DNA of 5,845 nt from Bacteroidia bacterium (GTDB lineage: Bacteria; Bacteroidota; Bacteroidia; Cytophagales; Cyclobacteriaceae): assembly GCA_012031955.1 (NCBI GenBank), contig JAAURZ010000178.1, positions 1-5,845 on the forward strand. The letters are read 5' to 3'. The position numbers and the translations under genes were made by a program. Shown piece after piece: positions 1-5,845 of this stretch (positions are counted from its first letter, which is position 1; every line of letters begins with the position of its first letter). The notes beneath the pieces were generated by a model. The model was not told where the DNA came from. It worked only from the letters and a program-made list of their open reading frames with translations, and ran no database searches.

Positions 1-366
1 TTTCAGCGCCAATGTTTTGATCACTTTGCCGGTGTCGACGAGGCTGATTTCTCCCCACGCTTCATGCAGCATGAAGCCGTTGTACGCGGCGGCCGTTGTG
101 CGATTGATACTTGATGCATCCTGGCCCCACACGCGCACATCTTGAACGGCTGTGTAGAGCTTGAAACGATAGCCGGAATAGCTGGCCATCAGTCGCGTGC
201 GTTGAGAGATGAACGCGGCCGGTACCGTATCGGGCGAAGGCGCGCCTTGCCCGTCGCGAAGCTCGGCACGGGCGCGCACTTGTGCCGAGAAGGTAAGCTG
301 GCCAAACACTGGTGCTGAAGTCGTCAGCCAGATGATTGCCGTGATGTAGTAGAATGTCTTTTTCAT
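1..366 (-). CDS. Alginate-export-family outer-membrane porin, N-terminal part (3' end outside window)
   Basis: Reading leftward from the ATG at 366-364, the frame stays open for all 122 codons to the window edge, so the gene is truncated by the window and not necessarily broken. The protein starts with MKKTFYYITAII and has a short basic N-terminus, a hydrophobic core and a cleavage-like APVFG|Q near residue 22, as in a Sec signal peptide. The mature part has the style of the alginate_exp beta-barrel family of Bacteroidota: a QVRARAELRDG start, then FISQRTRLMASY, then LYTAVQDVRVWGQD, then LHEAWGEISL, with alternating polar and hydrophobic strands. Its likely place is the outer membrane. It starts 16 bases after narK with an AAGG just upstream of the ATG, so it is probably cotranscribed with narK. 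The family name reflects homology to AlgE-like proteins. In this context passage of nitrate or nitrite is a reasonable guess, but the substrate cannot be read from sequence. A competing open frame at 62-370 is arginine-rich with no domain logic and is a shadow. Confidence 0.8.
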   Translation of the reverse strand, partial: MKKTFYYITAIIWLTTSAPVFGQLTFSAQVRARAELRDGQGAPSPDTVPAAFISQRTRLMASYSGYRFKLYTAVQDVRVWGQDASSINRTTAAAYNGFMLHEAWGEISLVDTGKVIKTLALK

Positions 367-1693: not shown

Positions 1694-1719
1694 AGGCTTG
1701 TTACGTAAGAGTTACGCAA

Positions 1720-1727
1720 TAAATCTA
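1720..1727 (-). promoter_or_regulatory. Possible narK -7 promoter element
   Basis: On the minus strand these bases read TAGATTTA, matching 7 of 8 positions of the Bacteroidota -7 consensus TAnnTTTG. It lies 26 bases before the narK ATG. If used, transcription would start around 1713-1715 and most TACGTA boxes would sit upstream in activator positions. No clear TTG element is seen at the expected -33 distance, so this is weak and could be chance in an AT-rich stretch. Confidence 0.25.
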
Positions 1728-1743
1728 AGTAAAACCACGTATA

Positions 1744-1764
1744 ATTACGTACTTTATACGTAAT
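1744..1764. repeat. 21-bp inverted repeat with perfect 8-bp arms
   Basis: The left arm ATTACGTA (1744-1751) and the right arm TACGTAAT (1757-1764) are exact reverse complements around the 5-base spacer CTTTA. Each arm also contains a self-palindromic TACGTA, so the element is a palindrome of palindromes. The symmetry ends after the eighth base on each side. It lies 51-71 bases before the narK start codon and has no T-run after it, so it looks like a dimer or tetramer protein-binding site and not a terminator. Confidence 0.7.
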
Positions 1765-1821
1765 ATTTCTCCGTAAAGGATTGCCCTACGTAGAAAATCG
1801 ATTGCAACGGGGGCTATTGGG

Positions 1822-2478
1822 TCACAAAAGGTTCTCCTTCACGGCCTTGTTGACCATGTCGATGGCATTGTTCACACCCAGTTTTTTCATGATGTTAAAA
1901 CGATGGGTCTCCACAGTGCGCAGGCTGAGCGACAGCGCTTCGGCAATTTCCTTGTTGTGCTGCCCGTCGACAACCAAACGCAATATTTGCTTCTCTTTTC
2001 GTGTGAGCCTGTATGGATCTTCTTTTGGGGCCGACGCCGTAGCCGCTGGCTTCGCGTTCAGCAGGCGATTGGCAAGCACGTTGGACACGGTGCCACTGAA
2101 GTAACGGGCGCCGCTGTTGATCTGGCGCAGTGCTTTAATGAATTCGTTTTTGTCTGTATCTTTTAACAGGTAGCCGTAGGCGCCGGCATCAAGCGACTGC
2201 AGTACGTAATCTTCCTGGTCGTGCATGGAGAGTATCACGGCCTTGGTGTTGGGTGCATACTTTTTCATGTTTGCCGCCGCTTCGAGGCCCGACATTTCCG
2301 GCATGCGTATGTCGAGCACCACAATGTCGGGCGACAGCGATCGGGCGGACTCGAGTGCTTCCCTCCCGTTGCTTGCCTCTCCGACTACTTTTATGTCGGA
2401 TTCCGATTCGAGCATGGTCTTGATGGCGTTGCGAACCAATACATGGTCGTCGGCAAGCAAGATATTGATAGTTTTCAT
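1822..2478 (-). CDS. NarL/FixJ-family response regulator
   Basis: This 218-residue cytoplasmic regulator has a receiver domain (about 4-120) joined by a short Ala/Pro-rich linker (143-152) to a LuxR-type helix-turn-helix domain (about 156-216). Visible receiver residues are the acidic pair D10/D11, phosphoacceptor D56 in VVLDIRMPEMSG, S84 in ILSMHD, and K106 in GYLLKD. The output domain shows LTRKEKQILRLV, then NKEIAEALSLS, then the recognition-helix region RTVETHRFNIMKKLG, all typical of the family. It starts 12 bases after the sensor kinase stop, so the two form an operon and very likely a phosphorelay pair. Its position between nirBD and narK suggests it controls nitrate/nitrite genes, with the flanking TACGTA boxes as candidate targets. 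It resembles NarL, NarP and NreC in architecture. I leave the symbol blank because members of this family cannot be told apart safely by eye. Confidence 0.95.
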   Translation of the reverse strand: MKTINILLADDHVLVRNAIKTMLESESDIKVVGEASNGREALESARSLSPDIVVLDIRMPEMSGLEAAANMKKYAPNTKAVILSMHDQEDYVLQSLDAGAYGYLLKDTDKNEFIKALRQINSGARYFSGTVSNVLANRLLNAKPAATASAPKEDPYRLTRKEKQILRLVVDGQHNKEIAEALSLSLRTVETHRFNIMKKLGVNNAIDMVNKAVKENLL

Positions 2479-2490
2479 TGAAGTGTTTAT

Positions 2491-3936
2491 TTATATCGCA
2501 TCGTCCACTGGCGCGACCACGTGCACCGGCACCACCAGTGTGACGGTGGTACCGTTGCCCGGCGACGACTGGATGGTCAGTTTTCCATTTACATATTCTG
2601 TACGTTCATACATATTGAAAAAGCCGCGACCTGATTCAATATTAGTGTGGCGTTGTTCAACAATTTTCGGATCAAAGCCTTTGCCGTTGTCTTGCACTAC
2701 AATTCTCAACTGGTCGGCTTGCGGCTCTACTTTAATCTCAATCAACTGCGCACCGGAGTATTTAAGTGCGTTGTTTATCGCTTCCTGAATAATTCTGAAA
2801 ATGTTGTTCTCCGTTTTCTGAGGCAGCCGGTCGAACTCGCCCGTTACGGTATAGTGTACCTGAATGTCGGTGAGTTTGCTGATCTCCTGCACGAACACTT
2901 TGAGTGCAGCCTGCAACCCAAAGTCGCCCAGCACGGTGGGGTTCAGGTTGAAGGTGACTCTTCGCGCTTCGCGGATAATGTCGCGAATAAGTTGCTCGGC
3001 TTCCCTGATGCGCGCTGCCGCCCTGGCCCTGTCGTTCAGGTCGATCGATTCTATCTGGAACTTAAGCGAGGTAAGCATTTGGCCTATGCCGTCGTGTACG
3101 TCCATAGCCAGTCGTTTGCGCTCTTCCTCCTGGCCTTCGAGTATCAACACAGAGCGGAATTTCTGTTGGTTTATTTGCTTCTCAATCGACGCGCGGTTCT
3201 TTTGGTGCATGGTTTTTTCCGCTTGCTTACGCTGCGTGTTGTCGGCGCCCATCAACACCCACTCCTCCACGTCCTGGTGTTCGTTATACACTGGTGCAAT
3301 AATAATTTCAGACCATCGATCATTTCCATCCACATCTCTGAACGTGATCTCACCCTGCCACGTGCGTTCTTCTGACAATGTAGAGACGACTTCATCCATC
3401 CAGTCACCGGGCTGGGCCATGCCCGGAAACAGGTCTGACAACACATGGGCGAACTTGTCTGTTACGCCTGTCACCTCACTGAATGCATCTTCGACAAAGG
3501 TCACGTTGCCGCCGCGGTCCGACTTCGCATAGAGCCGCGGATTCTGTGCGGGAAGGTTCACCATCGTTATGCGTTCGTATGACTTCTCCAGCGACACGTA
3601 CAGGGCGCCAATTTCCTTCGACAATTTTCGCGCATTTTCTTCCGCAGACATCAACTGACGGATGGCCCTGATCACTTGTATGGTAGTGGGGCGAAATACA
3701 AACAGGATCTCAAGTACAATCACAATAATTGAAATCGCGAGCAGCGCGTATTCGAGGTTGCTCAGTGTGTCCACCTTTGCCCGCGCTTCCTGATCGTACT
3801 GATAGACGATTGCATCCATTTGATTGAGGAACTTGCCCTCGTCTTCCAGTATGCCCCTTACGGCGGTGGCCACGACGTCCGCATCGGGCACGCGTTTCTT
3901 TTTTTCCTCCACCACGTTTTTGATGTTGTCATGCAT
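2491..3936 (-). CDS. Histidine kinase, C-terminal fragment with PAS, HisKA_3 and HATPase_c domains
   Basis: Residues are numbered from the ATG at 3936, the first in-frame start in sequence that looks coding (481 residues). The same frame is open up to an ATG at 4050, but its first 33 residues are Arg/His/Cys-rich and read out of frame over the sensor part. Residues 1-62 are the end of the periplasmic domain, including GKFLNQMDAIVYQYDQEAR. A transmembrane helix spans about 63-81 (YALLAISIIVIVLEILFVF). A coiled coil follows to about 122, then a PAS domain at about 133-247 (GNVTFVEDAFSEVTG through WVLMGADNTQRKQAE). The phosphoacceptor is H281 in RKRLAMDVHDGIGQ. ATP-binding boxes are EAINNALKYSGA (N box, about 385), DNGKGFD (416-422), GRGFFNM (436-442) and GNGTTV (460-465). 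This is the HPK7 class that pairs with NarL-type regulators. Catalytically it looks complete. Alone it would have one membrane helix and no nitrate-binding segment. Confidence 0.75.
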   Translation of the reverse strand: MHDNIKNVVEEKKKRVPDADVVATAVRGILEDEGKFLNQMDAIVYQYDQEARAKVDTLSNLEYALLAISIIVIVLEILFVFRPTTIQVIRAIRQLMSAEENARKLSKEIGALYVSLEKSYERITMVNLPAQNPRLYAKSDRGGNVTFVEDAFSEVTGVTDKFAHVLSDLFPGMAQPGDWMDEVVSTLSEERTWQGEITFRDVDGNDRWSEIIIAPVYNEHQDVEEWVLMGADNTQRKQAEKTMHQKNRASIEKQINQQKFRSVLILEGQEEERKRLAMDVHDGIGQMLTSLKFQIESIDLNDRARAAARIREAEQLIRDIIREARRVTFNLNPTVLGDFGLQAALKVFVQEISKLTDIQVHYTVTGEFDRLPQKTENNIFRIIQEAINNALKYSGAQLIEIKVEPQADQLRIVVQDNGKGFDPKIVEQRHTNIESGRGFFNMYERTEYVNGKLTIQSSPGNGTTVTLVVPVHVVAPVDDAI

Positions 3937-4340
3937 CGCGCGAAGGGTGCTTCGAGTTGCGTGAACATGTCTTTCACGGCAGTGCTGTTGATGGCAGGGA
4001 GTTGCAGTGCGCTGTCGCCATGCTGCAGGCCGTAGTGACCGCGCTTCCATTGGCCAAGCGCAGCCTCCAGTTCGGCCGACTGCGCTGCGATGCGTGTGCT
4101 ATCGTGCTGTTGCTGAAGTAACAGTACCATCTTCACAAGCTGCTGACTGCGGTAGCGTTGCGTGCCCGCAATGTTCACCACGCGCGAGTCGCCAAGCTGG
4201 TTGTGCAGGTGCCGCTGAATAAGAACCTGCCCCGCAATGGCGATGGTGGCGATGGCGCTAAGGGCCAGCACATACCACATACCCAGCTTGCTGAACCGCT
4301 GAAACGTTGCCTTATTGACCTCCAGGAAATCGAAGTTCAT
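3858..4340 (-). CDS. Histidine kinase, N-terminal nitrate-sensor fragment
   Basis: This 160-residue frame starts at the ATG at 4340. A transmembrane helix covers about 20-41 (MWYVLALSAIATIAIAGQ), followed by a periplasmic helical domain of the PilJ/NarX type. The segment VVNIAGTQRYRSQQL at 54-68 resembles the NarX P-box, where a conserved arginine binds nitrate; R62 is the likely counterpart. The GQWKRGHYGLQHGD stretch at 96-109 is also typical of the domain. Native sequence runs to about E130/A131. The last 29 residues (PFARCMTTSKTWWR and on, ending at the TAA at 3858) are unlike the family, with Arg/Trp/Pro-rich codons, and are the out-of-frame tail. On its own the product would be a membrane-anchored stub without kinase activity. 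Confidence 0.75.
   Translation of the reverse strand: MNFDFLEVNKATFQRFSKLGMWYVLALSAIATIAIAGQVLIQRHLHNQLGDSRVVNIAGTQRYRSQQLVKMVLLLQQQHDSTRIAAQSAELEAALGQWKRGHYGLQHGDSALQLPAINSTAVKDMFTQLEAPFARCMTTSKTWWRKKRNACPMRTSWPPP
3945..3956 (-). other. Frame-change point in the sensor kinase gene
   Basis: On the coding strand the sensor frame reads CTC GAA GCA CCC TTC here, while the kinase frame reads CGA AGC ACC CTT CGC, one base back. One missing base restores a single protein. If the CCC at 3947-3945 were CCCC, the joined protein would read QLEAPLRAMHDNIK, which fits the helical periplasmic domain well. Both frames are open from 4050 to 3861, so the switch could in principle happen anywhere there. Codon quality places it here. 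Confidence 0.7.
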
Positions 4341-4435
4341 TACGTAGCAAGTTACTCAGAAATTGTGATTTACGTAGTTCAAAAAATGACCCATTTGAAG
4401 CAGAAACAGGGATTACGGCAAATTGTCTTACGTAA
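4340..4435 (-). promoter_or_regulatory. TACGTA boxes upstream of the sensor kinase
   Basis: The 103-base gap between nirD and the kinase gene holds exact TACGTA cores at 4341-4346, 4371-4376 and 4429-4434, plus weaker TACTCA (4353-4358) and TACGGC (4414-4419). The first two are identical 8-mers TTACGTAG (4340-4347 and 4370-4377) whose centres are 30 bases apart; the third is the perfect palindrome TTACGTAA (4428-4435). The first box directly abuts the kinase start codon. The motif is the same as in front of narK, which suggests a shared regulator and autoregulation of the kinase-regulator pair. I see no convincing -7/-33 promoter pair here. Confidence 0.55.
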
Positions 4436-4440
4436 ATGGG
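4381..4440 (-). terminator. Weak terminator- or attenuator-like hairpin after nirD
   Basis: On the transcribed strand, CCCATTT (4440-4434) is followed 37 bases later by its exact complement AAATGGG (4396-4390), then TCA and a run of six T (4386-4381). This has the order of an intrinsic terminator for nirBD, but the 7-bp stem has only three G-C pairs and the loop is long, so it would be weak. The first arm overlaps the TTACGTAA box at 4428-4435. Confidence 0.25.
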
Positions 4441-4443
4441 CTG

Positions 4444-4821
4444 TCACTCTATAAATGGAACGCCGATGTAGACGTACCCGTCTTGCAGCCTGACGGGGTA
4501 CACCGTAAGATGGTCTTCGTCCGAATTGAGGCAGCGGCCATCTTGCAACGAAAAGGTCTTCTTATGAAAAGGGCAGGCGACTTTGGGCTCACAGTCGTGC
4601 GAGCCGATCATGCCACGTGAAAGGATCATCTGCTTTTTGTGCGGGCACATATTCTGGCAGGCGAACCATTCATTGCGACGCGTGAAATTGAACACGGCAA
4701 TTTGCAGCCCCCCATACTTGACACATGCGCCTCCGTTGGCCGGAAAGTCCGTGGCGCGCGCGGCCCTGAACCAGTGCATCGTCTCTATTGCCGTTGTTCG
4801 TATTTCCGTATTATCCTTCAT
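4444..4821 (-). CDS. nirD: Nitrite reductase (NADH) small subunit NirD, Rieske-type
   Basis: This 125-residue protein is the small subunit of the assimilatory, cytoplasmic NADH-dependent nitrite reductase that turns nitrite into ammonium with NirB. It is a single Rieske-fold domain (Rieske_2 type). The ligand pairs of a [2Fe-2S] Rieske centre are all present: C59-x-H61 in NMCPHKKQ and C83-x2-H86 in ACPFHKKTF. The family segments MILSRGMIG (65-73) and FSLQDGRCL (90-98) lie around them. E. coli NirD, from memory, has lost these ligands, so this protein is of the cluster-bearing kind. The gene begins 3 bases after the nirB stop codon, which implies cotranscription and translational coupling. Length is normal for the family and no defect is visible. 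Confidence 0.95.
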   Translation of the reverse strand: MKDNTEIRTTAIETMHWFRAARATDFPANGGACVKYGGLQIAVFNFTRRNEWFACQNMCPHKKQMILSRGMIGSHDCEPKVACPFHKKTFSLQDGRCLNSDEDHLTVYPVRLQDGYVYIGVPFIE

Positions 4822-4824
4822 GCA

Positions 4825-5845
4825 TCAGGTGTTTTGCGTTGATGTATTCCAATCCGGCGGACACTTCTGCCCGCGCATATCCACGAACGTGAGTGTGTCG
4901 TCTTCCGTGTCATCATTGATGAATGGTTTGAACCTTGCCCTAAGCGCCGGGTCTTCTACAACTTCCTTCCATTCGCACTTATACTTGCCGATTAGTTCCT
5001 TCATTTCAGATTCCAGGTCGTCGCCGATGCTGAGTGAGTCATTCACGATCACGTTGCGCAGGTAGTCGAGGCCTCCTTCCATTTTATTGAGCCATGTGGC
5101 GGTACGCGTGAGCGGGTCGGCCGTGCGTATGTAAAACATCAGGAACCGGTCGATCAACTTTACACAAGTTTCCGTGTCGACATCGTTCACCAGGAGTTTA
5201 GCGTGTTGCGGGTGAGCGCCGCCATTTCCACACACATACAAATTCCAACCTTTTTCTGTGGCGATAATTCCAAAGTCTTTCGACTGTGCTTCGGCACATT
5301 CGCGTATGCATCCCGACACGGCCCCTTTTATTTTGTGCGGTGCGCGCAGGCCTTTGTACCTGTTTTCGATGAAGATCGCAAACGAGACGGAGTCTTGCAC
5401 GCCGTACCTGCACCACGTAGAGCCTACGCAGCTTTTCACAGTTCGCAATGCCTTACCATACGCATGACCACTTTCGAAGCCTTCGGCGATCAGTTCCTCC
5501 CAAATCTCGGGAAGCTGATGAACCGGCGCTCCAAACATATCGATGCGCTGCCCGCCGGTAATCTTGGTGTACAGCTTATACTTGTCGGCAATACGTCCGA
5601 TGGCCATCAGTTGCCTGGGCGTGATTTCACCTCCGGGCACTCGTGGCACCACCGAATATGATCCGCCACGCTGGATGTTGGCGAGAAAGCGATCGTTGGT
5701 ATCTTGTATGGTGTCTTGTTTGGCGATGAGTTCGTTCCAGATGCTGGCCAGCAGCGAGGCCACGGCAGGTTTGCATATCTCGCAGCCATCGCCTGTACCG
5801 TGCGTGTCGACTACTTCATCGAATGTGCGGAAACCGTTGATGCTG
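4825..5845 (-). CDS. nirB: Nitrite reductase (NADH) large subunit NirB, C-terminal part (5' end outside window)
   Basis: The frame is open from the right edge (first full codon at 5844) to a TGA at 4825-4827, giving 339 residues of a protein that is usually over 800. It is the catalytic end of the assimilatory nitrite reductase. Near the edge, GDGCEICKPAVASLL (C21, C24 of the visible part) is the end of the BFD-like [2Fe-2S] domain. A ferredoxin-like half domain follows (about 57-119, GGSYSVVPRVPGGEITPR and ITGGQRIDMFG). The siroheme/[4Fe-4S] domain then shows both cysteine pairs: C139-x5-C145 in SCVGSTWCRYG and C179-x3-C183 in SGCIRECAEA. The FAD/NAD(P)H domains lie outside the window. A GTG at 5763 can look like a start, but coding sequence continues upstream through the BFD motif, so it is an internal valine. 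Followed by nirD after 3 bases. Confidence 0.97.
   Translation of the reverse strand, partial: SINGFRTFDEVVDTHGTGDGCEICKPAVASLLASIWNELIAKQDTIQDTNDRFLANIQRGGSYSVVPRVPGGEITPRQLMAIGRIADKYKLYTKITGGQRIDMFGAPVHQLPEIWEELIAEGFESGHAYGKALRTVKSCVGSTWCRYGVQDSVSFAIFIENRYKGLRAPHKIKGAVSGCIRECAEAQSKDFGIIATEKGWNLYVCGNGGAHPQHAKLLVNDVDTETCVKLIDRFLMFYIRTADPLTRTATWLNKMEGGLDYLRNVIVNDSLSIGDDLESEMKELIGKYKCEWKEVVEDPALRARFKPFINDDTEDDTLTFVDMRGQKCPPDWNTSTQNT

Follow-up and report, generated by a model that had tools for sequence, protein, structure and literature searches.

The narHK/narRR nitrate two-component system of Bacteroidota has been described by its genes and sensors (PMC8199190), in a main text that uses neither "promoter" nor "operator"; the DNA site and its arrays are what we add here. 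A comparison of nitrogen-oxide regulons mentions Bacteroides, in its available sections, only for HcpR (PMC1274295), and no description of a TACGTA operator in Bacteroidota was found among the matches listed in the open-licence PubMed Central literature. Our subject is a stretch of 5,845 nucleotides from a Bacteroidia bacterium (GCA_012031955.1, contig JAAURZ010000178.1), hereafter the window, to which all coordinates refer, and the hexamer TACGTA, which is repeated in its nitrate locus. Judging from comparative sequence data, TACGTA is very probably a half-site recognized by narRR, the nitrate response regulator whose gene lies in the same window (1822–2478, minus strand). For comparison, 80 related loci (labelled L001 and so on) were gathered from named genome records, mostly of Cytophagales with some Sphingobacteriales, by way of narRR relatives (a 22-row alignment).

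The locus has much in common with the systems already described. It shows the same gene pair beside nitrate genes as the Bacteroidota narHK/narRR system, with a sensor that carries a PAS domain and gives no HAMP or GAF match; the PAS content of the window kinase agrees with the Indibacter-type branch, and one of our loci, L028, sits on the Indibacter alkaliphilus contig named in the legend to Figure 3 of that report (PMC8199190). On the DNA side, the 7-2-7 site of Escherichia coli NarL, TACCCCTAAAGGGGTA (PMC4549865), is likewise a 16-base-pair (bp) inverted hexamer-N4-hexamer with outer TAC and nitrate gene targets. Unlike that site, the one predicted here has a palindromic half-site, and for this reason it looked unlike NarL at first sight; it also occurs in phased arrays of up to seven perfect boxes (in L005). 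The NarL heptamer consensus is TACYYMT, which TACGTA misfits with its G at position 4. FixJ sites, known as the consensus GTAMGTAG from systematic evolution of ligands by exponential enrichment (SELEX; PMC4999443) and as GTACGTAG in the FixJ-bound fixK promoter (PMC13327599), contain TACGTA or a close relative of it, and the LuxR/FixJ output fold is shared; predicted FixJ sites are 18-bp imperfect palindromes (PMC4999443). Unlike FixLJ, however, the system in the window pairs its regulator with a PilJ-type/PAS kinase, not with the oxygen-sensing FixL, and its targets are nitrate genes. Compared with GTAMGTAG, the bases flanking TACGTA are dominated by A and T, with G at a frequency of 0.07 before the box and 0.13 after it.

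TACGTA arrays in the window and in related loci

All genes of the window are encoded on the minus strand. Gap 1 (1694–1821, 128 bp) lies upstream of the transporter gene narK (383–1693), and gap 2 (4341–4443, 103 bp) upstream of the kinase gene narHK (2491–4340). A sequence-only reading of this DNA had listed eight copies of TACGTA, at 1702, 1746, 1757, 1787, 2203, 4341, 4371 and 4429, seven of them in the two gaps, together with weaker copies and a 16-bp double box at 1736–1751, and our recount agrees with it on every coordinate. Four boxes fall in gap 1 and three in gap 2, within a total of 231 bp, while the eighth (2203–2208) lies within the narRR gene and is regarded as chance. In 200 dinucleotide-preserving shuffles, the mean number of matches in the window was 0.69 and the maximum 3; likewise, none of 20,000 runs of a first-order Markov model of both gaps produced as many as seven gap boxes (maximum 5).

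The narK array is best described by offsets from its distal end, where motif count and alignment place a box at 1787–1792 (offset 0). Perfect boxes follow at 1757–1762 (30), 1746–1751 (41) and 1702–1707 (85), the last being nearest to the narK start codon. The alignment covers 9 of 11 narK upstream regions (L010 and L018 left out), and the two central boxes, at offsets 30 and 41, are invariant in 9/9. The same gap holds one-mismatch boxes, read on the minus strand, at 1736–1741 (TACGTG, offset 51, forming the 16-bp pair with 1746), 1726–1731 (TACTTA, 61) and 1713–1718 (TGCGTA, 74). Box offsets in relatives are 0, 31, 41, 61, 74 and 85 in L009 and L010; 0, 31, 42, 62, 75 and 86 in L011; 0, 30, 40, 61, 74 and 85 in L005; 0, 31, 41, 74 and 85 in L001; and 0, 31, 41, 52, 74 and 87 in L012 and L015. 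Thus, a perfect TACGTA stands in the place of the window's TGCGTA (at 74 in L001, L005, L009, L010, L012 and L015; at 75 in L011), of its TACTTA (at 61 in L005, L009 and L010; at 62 in L011) and of its TACGTG (at 52 in L012 and L015), and the box at offset 85 recurs in L001, L005, L009 and L010 (at 86 in L011). Because the one-mismatch boxes match the box offsets of relatives, they resemble decayed boxes of an array that is otherwise conserved. A fourth near-match, TACGGA at 1770–1775 (minus strand, offset 17), has no counterpart in the relatives compared and is probably chance. Adjoining the distal end of the array, at 1795–1806, there is also a second conserved element, TGCAA(A/T)CGATTT, found in L001, L005 and L009–L011 as well; in L001, L003, L007 and L011, the nirB start codon is preceded by AAATCGTTTGCA, which is its reverse complement, or by a near variant.

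In gap 2, the box at 4341–4346 directly adjoins the start codon of the kinase gene (ATG at 4340), and in 10 of L001–L015 a box is located 7–8 bp ahead of the kinase start as called. Its degenerate partner, TGAGTA/TACTCA at 4353–4358, is 12 bp off and has two mismatches; TACGTA is found 12–13 bp away in L001, L005, L009–L012 and L015. Two further perfect boxes are located at 4371–4376 and 4429–4434.

Across the 80 loci and the window, TACGTA occurs 444 times in 132.8 kilobases (kb) between called genes (3.34/kb) and 221 times in 1,354 kb inside them (0.16/kb), gene calls here being open reading frame (ORF) calls made in this analysis. The ratio of the two densities is 20.5, against 0.5–2.7 for the 23 other six-base palindromes. 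The box is sparse in intergenic DNA at the ends of the loci: across the 59 loci that span 20 kb or more, its intergenic density is 0.44/kb over the outermost 2.5 kb on either side (14 in 31.9 kb) and 7.2/kb in the middle, at 4.5–12 kb (254 in 35.2 kb). Conservation in relatives, which the sequence-only reading had named among the checks of its proposal, is clear upstream of nirB, a region that falls beyond the window itself. Among the 64 loci where it is readable, 61 have at least one TACGTA and 58 at least two, and TACGTA is the top hexamer, observed 181 times against 6.5 expected. On the genome scale, single boxes proved non-specific, with 380–1327 copies per genome in six relatives (846 in Ohtaekwangia koreensis). 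Close pairs of boxes are more locus-specific: of the 28 pairs at 10–13 bp in these six genomes, 17 lie within the nitrate locus (Chryseolinea serpens 3/4, O. koreensis 5/5, Parachryseolinea 5/10, a Cyclobacterium 1/3, a Flammeovirga 1/3, Marinoscillum pacificum 2/3). For pairs at 20–44 bp, the locus holds 6/6 in O. koreensis, and 2/7 and 6/14 in the other two genomes searched. Some loci carry labels at odds with their regulators: the contigs of L005, L010 and L075 bear the labels Chitinophaga, Bacteroides and Rickettsiales, but the regulator tree places their regulators with those of Ohtaekwangia or Marinoscillum; the contigs of L058 and L062, labelled Thalassovita and Phycisphaeraceae, have regulators of the same family by identity only. 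These are probably misassigned metagenome bins.

Phasing, recognition helix and half-site

Spacing was counted over all boxes, genic ones included. Among 312 successive distances of up to 120 bp, 10 bp is the commonest (84), other frequent values being 13 (23), 31 (22), 32 (19), 33 (17), 11 (16) and 20–23 bp (39 together). The spacing has a period of about 10.6–10.8 bp (R 0.65–0.66). When 76 distinct gap patterns are compared at 10.6 bp, they are in phase, and none of 5000 random patterns reaches the observed phase. The boxes of the arrays are in phase with the DNA helix.

The presence of the box follows the regulator. Genomes bearing nirB (130 of 341 Cytophagales and 15 of 295 of the class) were labelled G005 and so on; 139 different ones were used, and two partial nirB matches, G400 and G410, were left out. 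Leaving out G005, we sorted the genomes by the strength of their regulator match and looked for TACGTA in the 400 bp upstream of nirB. It is present in 41 of the 55 genomes that match at 236 bits or more, in 3 of the 47 that match more weakly (a single box in each) and in none of the 36 without a regulator match at E <= 1e-50. Fourteen genomes are exceptions in the highest bin: ten have a recognition helix of the DNHRA type, two are Belliella with ESHRF, and two have the regulator on another contig, unread. In the window, the recognition helix of narRR is RTVETHRFNIMKKL. Sorted by helix, with the duplicates G407, G623 and G605 dropped, TACGTA is found upstream of nirB in 68/71 genomes with an HRF-type helix and in 1/30 with other helices. 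The full 104 rows, duplicates included, give 61/62 for ETHRF, 6/6 for EVHRF, 1/1 for EAHRF and 1/5 for ESHRF, and 1/14 for DNHRA, 0/3 for SNHRA, 0/11 for ANQRA and 0/2 for two uncaught DNHRA variants. The hexamer TACTCA is distributed differently, being present with DNHRA (14/14), SNHRA (3/3) and the two DNHRA variants (2/2), in 13/71 genomes of the HRF type and in 0/11 of ANQRA; TACTTA is common in both camps (ETHRF 50/62, DNHRA 14/14). The changing helix residues, E-T-F in the one camp and D-N-A in the other, align with NarL positions 188, 189 and 192, which contact bases in NarL. Overall, the covariation of helix and box, as read from these sequences, is strong but is not many-times-repeated evidence. 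As for the earlier proposal of a local operator for the encoded NarL-family regulator, conservation, rarity at locus ends and this covariation speak for it, while its half-site detail had to be corrected. A further hexamer, TACTAT, is enriched upstream of nirB in 11/11 ANQRA genomes and in 22/36 genomes without a close regulator; a single pair geometry was looked for in these upstream regions and was not found.

The correction concerns the way in which TACGTA is divided. The sequence-only reading took TAC and GTA for two half-sites that abut without a spacer. Perfect intergenic boxes have 888 slots at a distance of 10 bp; 159 of these are filled by perfect boxes and 76 by one-mismatch boxes, and in the latter the mismatch falls in the outer triplet 67 times (53 of them TACTTA) and in the inner triplet 9 times. 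Two abutting half-sites would lose either triplet equally, and so this polarity argues that TACGTA is not built in such a way. TACTCA points in the same direction. Two sets of genomes, DN and AN, were assigned by hand, 9 of 25 and 9 of 20, respectively, being placed by regulator score with the helix unread; in the nirB genomes of the DNHRA type, TACTCA is enriched (42 observed against 4.3 expected, in 24/25). It is non-palindromic, and its nine pairs within 60 bp comprise five of the form TGAGTA-N4-TACTCA, three direct ones and one divergent at 25 bp. Taken together, the polarity of the outer triplet and the N4 pairs of TACTCA argue for a 16-bp dimer site with a constant core, GTA-N4-TAC, and a variable outer triplet, in which TACGTA would be one self-complementary half-site. 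The predicted dimer operator is TACGTA-N4-TACGTA, that is, two boxes 10 bp apart.

Proposed mechanism and alternative readings

In the mechanism that we propose, narRR, phosphorylated in response to nitrate, would bind as a dimer to two half-sites one helical turn (10 bp) apart, TAC-GTA-N4-TAC-GTA, 16 bp in all. The inner core GTA-N4-TAC would be the constant part of the operator and the outer triplet would be lineage-specific: GTA here, with TTA tolerated, and TCA for regulators with a DNHRA or SNHRA helix. Further narRR dimers might then settle along one face of the helix, spaced by multiples of about 10.6 bp, which would account for the arrays of two to seven perfect boxes before narK, the kinase gene and nirB and, in relatives, before other nitrate genes. 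A self-complementary half-site could accept a narRR monomer in either direction. It is tempting to go further and to suppose that narRR forms a continuous one-sided oligomer along the array in place of separate dimers, and that TACGTA/TACTCA and the three helix positions would then make up a specificity code for NarL/FixJ regulators, but we regard this extension as tentative and rather doubtful.

The weakest step is the direction of control, for which nitrate-dependent activation of narK and nirB seems to us somewhat the better choice. At narK, the centre of the pair 1746/1757 lies about 30 bp upstream of TA-nn-TTTA (1720–1727, minus strand), a candidate -7 promoter element whose six fixed bases are invariant in 9/9 sequences; we read it as a putative Bacteroidota -7 element from its likeness to the promoter consensus TAnnTTTG. 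A looser promoter pattern peaks 29–30 bp from the pair centre (21 matches over 116 oriented pairs), with further peaks at 20 (7) and 22 bp (11), and TAnnTT(A/T)(A/G) stands 29–31 bp downstream of 14/42 oriented nirB pairs, mostly in Cyclobacterium and Echinicola. Such pairs, at about 29–31 bp upstream of a -7-like element, occupy the position of a -33 element and therefore fit an activator. The opposite possibility, with narRR acting chiefly as a roadblock repressor at the arrays and being relieved by nitrate, is less likely but deserves attention, as one box touches the start codon of the kinase gene and only a few bases separate the last narK box from the ATG; moreover, the repression of frdA by NarL in E. 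coli is exerted from a 7-2-7 site at -4/+6 (PMC4549865). Its difficulty lies in the narK pair, spaced at 10–11 bp, and in the 14/42 nirB pairs, which take the -33 position. Since both narK and the kinase gene have a box at the start codon, repression or autoregulation is indicated as well, and the box touching the kinase start suggests that an added autorepression may exist.

A number of observations weigh against the mechanism or its parts. With regard to geometry, many boxes are solitary or paired at 11 or 13 bp, most TACTCA copies stand outside a perfect pair (42 copies in 25 genomes, with five N4 pairs), and TACTCA pairs at 10 bp were looked for in the SNHRA set and none was found. As to specificity, 11/28 pairs at 10–13 bp lie outside the locus in the six genomes (5/10 in Parachryseolinea and 2/3 in each of two others), and L008 has no box in the 400 bp upstream of nirB, its boxes being farther from the called start. 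The two Belliella genomes with ESHRF lack TACGTA in this upstream region, while one DNHRA genome, G624, has it. The Fisher p of 8e-21 for helix against box overstates the covariation, because there are few independent events: the presence of TACGTA changes four times on the regulator tree, the main change being on a single deep split. Finally, a first scan for TAnnTTTG promoters near nirB boxes gave no enrichment, the candidate promoter elements are limited to narK and the 14/42 oriented nirB pairs, and the boxes at the start codons misfit a simple activator.

Each TACGTA might alternatively be a complete dimer site, made of two abutting half-sites or resembling the FixJ site. The fixK and SELEX sequences cited above lend some weight to this idea, as do the isolated boxes. 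We nevertheless consider it improbable, since one-mismatch partners at 10 bp keep the inner triplet and lose the outer one (67 against 9), which is unexpected for a symmetric full site, since 10 bp is the commonest spacing, and since TACTCA, though non-palindromic, is N4-paired in 5/9 pairs. The operator of two half-sites without a spacer is disfavoured by the same mismatch polarity and TACTCA pairing. Binding of TACGTA by some other transcription factor, for example of the Crp/Fnr type, is very unlikely: arrays do flank a Crp-family gene in M. pacificum (L069), but box presence and spelling follow the recognition helix of narRR, and there is no other regulator among the identified genes of the window (the neighbours in relatives being identified in part). 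Chance or compositional clustering of a short palindrome, which the short and AT-rich gaps (38% G+C) might suggest, can be rejected with near certainty in view of the shuffles, the Markov model, the density ratio, the enrichment upstream of nirB and the locus-end comparison, and is refuted by conservation in relatives.

The nitrate locus and genes near the arrays

The gene of narRR, the probable reader of TACGTA, lies among nitrate genes. The window opens with the N-terminal part of an outer-membrane-type protein (2–366, minus strand, as are all of the following), which follows narK, a nitrate/nitrite major facilitator superfamily (MFS) transporter identified by family-model matches (302.4 bits against the NarK subfamily model, slightly under its cut-off of 311.7). 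The narRR product combines a receiver with a LuxR/GerE helix-turn-helix (Pfam Response_reg and GerE), and nirB, nirD and the NarK-type transporter gene lie alongside. The narHK product is a nitrate-sensor-type histidine kinase with a PilJ-type sensor (PF13675 at 47.9 bits, cut-off 26.6), a predicted periplasmic nitrate-sensor domain, together with PAS_9 (27.0 bits, at its cut-off), HisKA_3 and HATPase_c. It is split over two overlapping frames (3858–4340 and 2491–4050), whereas L001 and L002 have a single open frame, and the split is a frame break in the contig, either real or sequencing-derived. Scanned separately, neither of the two frames gave a Pfam match to HAMP or GAF. Against the NCBIfam equivalog models, narRR stays below the score for NarL (161.6 bits against 250), and the larger kinase frame below those for NarQ (89.1 against 553) and NarX (76.9 against 578). 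Beyond gap 2, family-model matches identify nirD, the nitrite reductase small subunit (4444–4821), and the C-terminal part of nirB, the assimilatory nitrite reductase large subunit (4825–5844).

In the relatives examined, the genes near arrays or in the same cluster include nirB, a tetrapyrrole methylase gene, the kinase gene and narK, as well as one for a molybdopterin oxidoreductase with a fused pyridine-nucleotide reductase domain, whose context suggests the nitrate-reductase type. Others encode alginate-export-type proteins, components of ABC transporters and a TonB receptor; in Marinoscillum, there is also a gene for a Crp-family regulator. This gene set fits nitrate and nitrite assimilation. 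At about 11.9–13.1 kb in L067, L069 and L075, TACGTA arrays flank a gene of about 233 codons, which in L069 encodes the Crp-family regulator. Outside the locus, the C. serpens array (L102) has four boxes that make up three pairs; its neighbours are a small ORF and an alginate-export-type gene on one side and a P450 gene on the other. The outside pair of Marinoscillum (L095) is found just past the boundary of the locus as retrieved and precedes an MFS gene. In Flammeovirga, a cluster of six boxes (L092, boxes 1373–1730) sits on a contig other than that of the regulator and adjoins genes for proteins of 443 and 214 amino acids, both without a Pfam match.

Our scenario gives a nitrate two-component family known by its genes and sensors (PMC8199190) a predicted operator, a first outline of its regulon and a testable switch of protein–DNA specificity. 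The C. serpens array outside the locus adjoins a relative of the window's porin-type gene: the product of 2–366 is 65% identical, over 122 aligned columns, to the alginate-export-type protein encoded there. TACGTA arrays can be used to look for nitrate-regulated genes in Cytophagales and related genomes.

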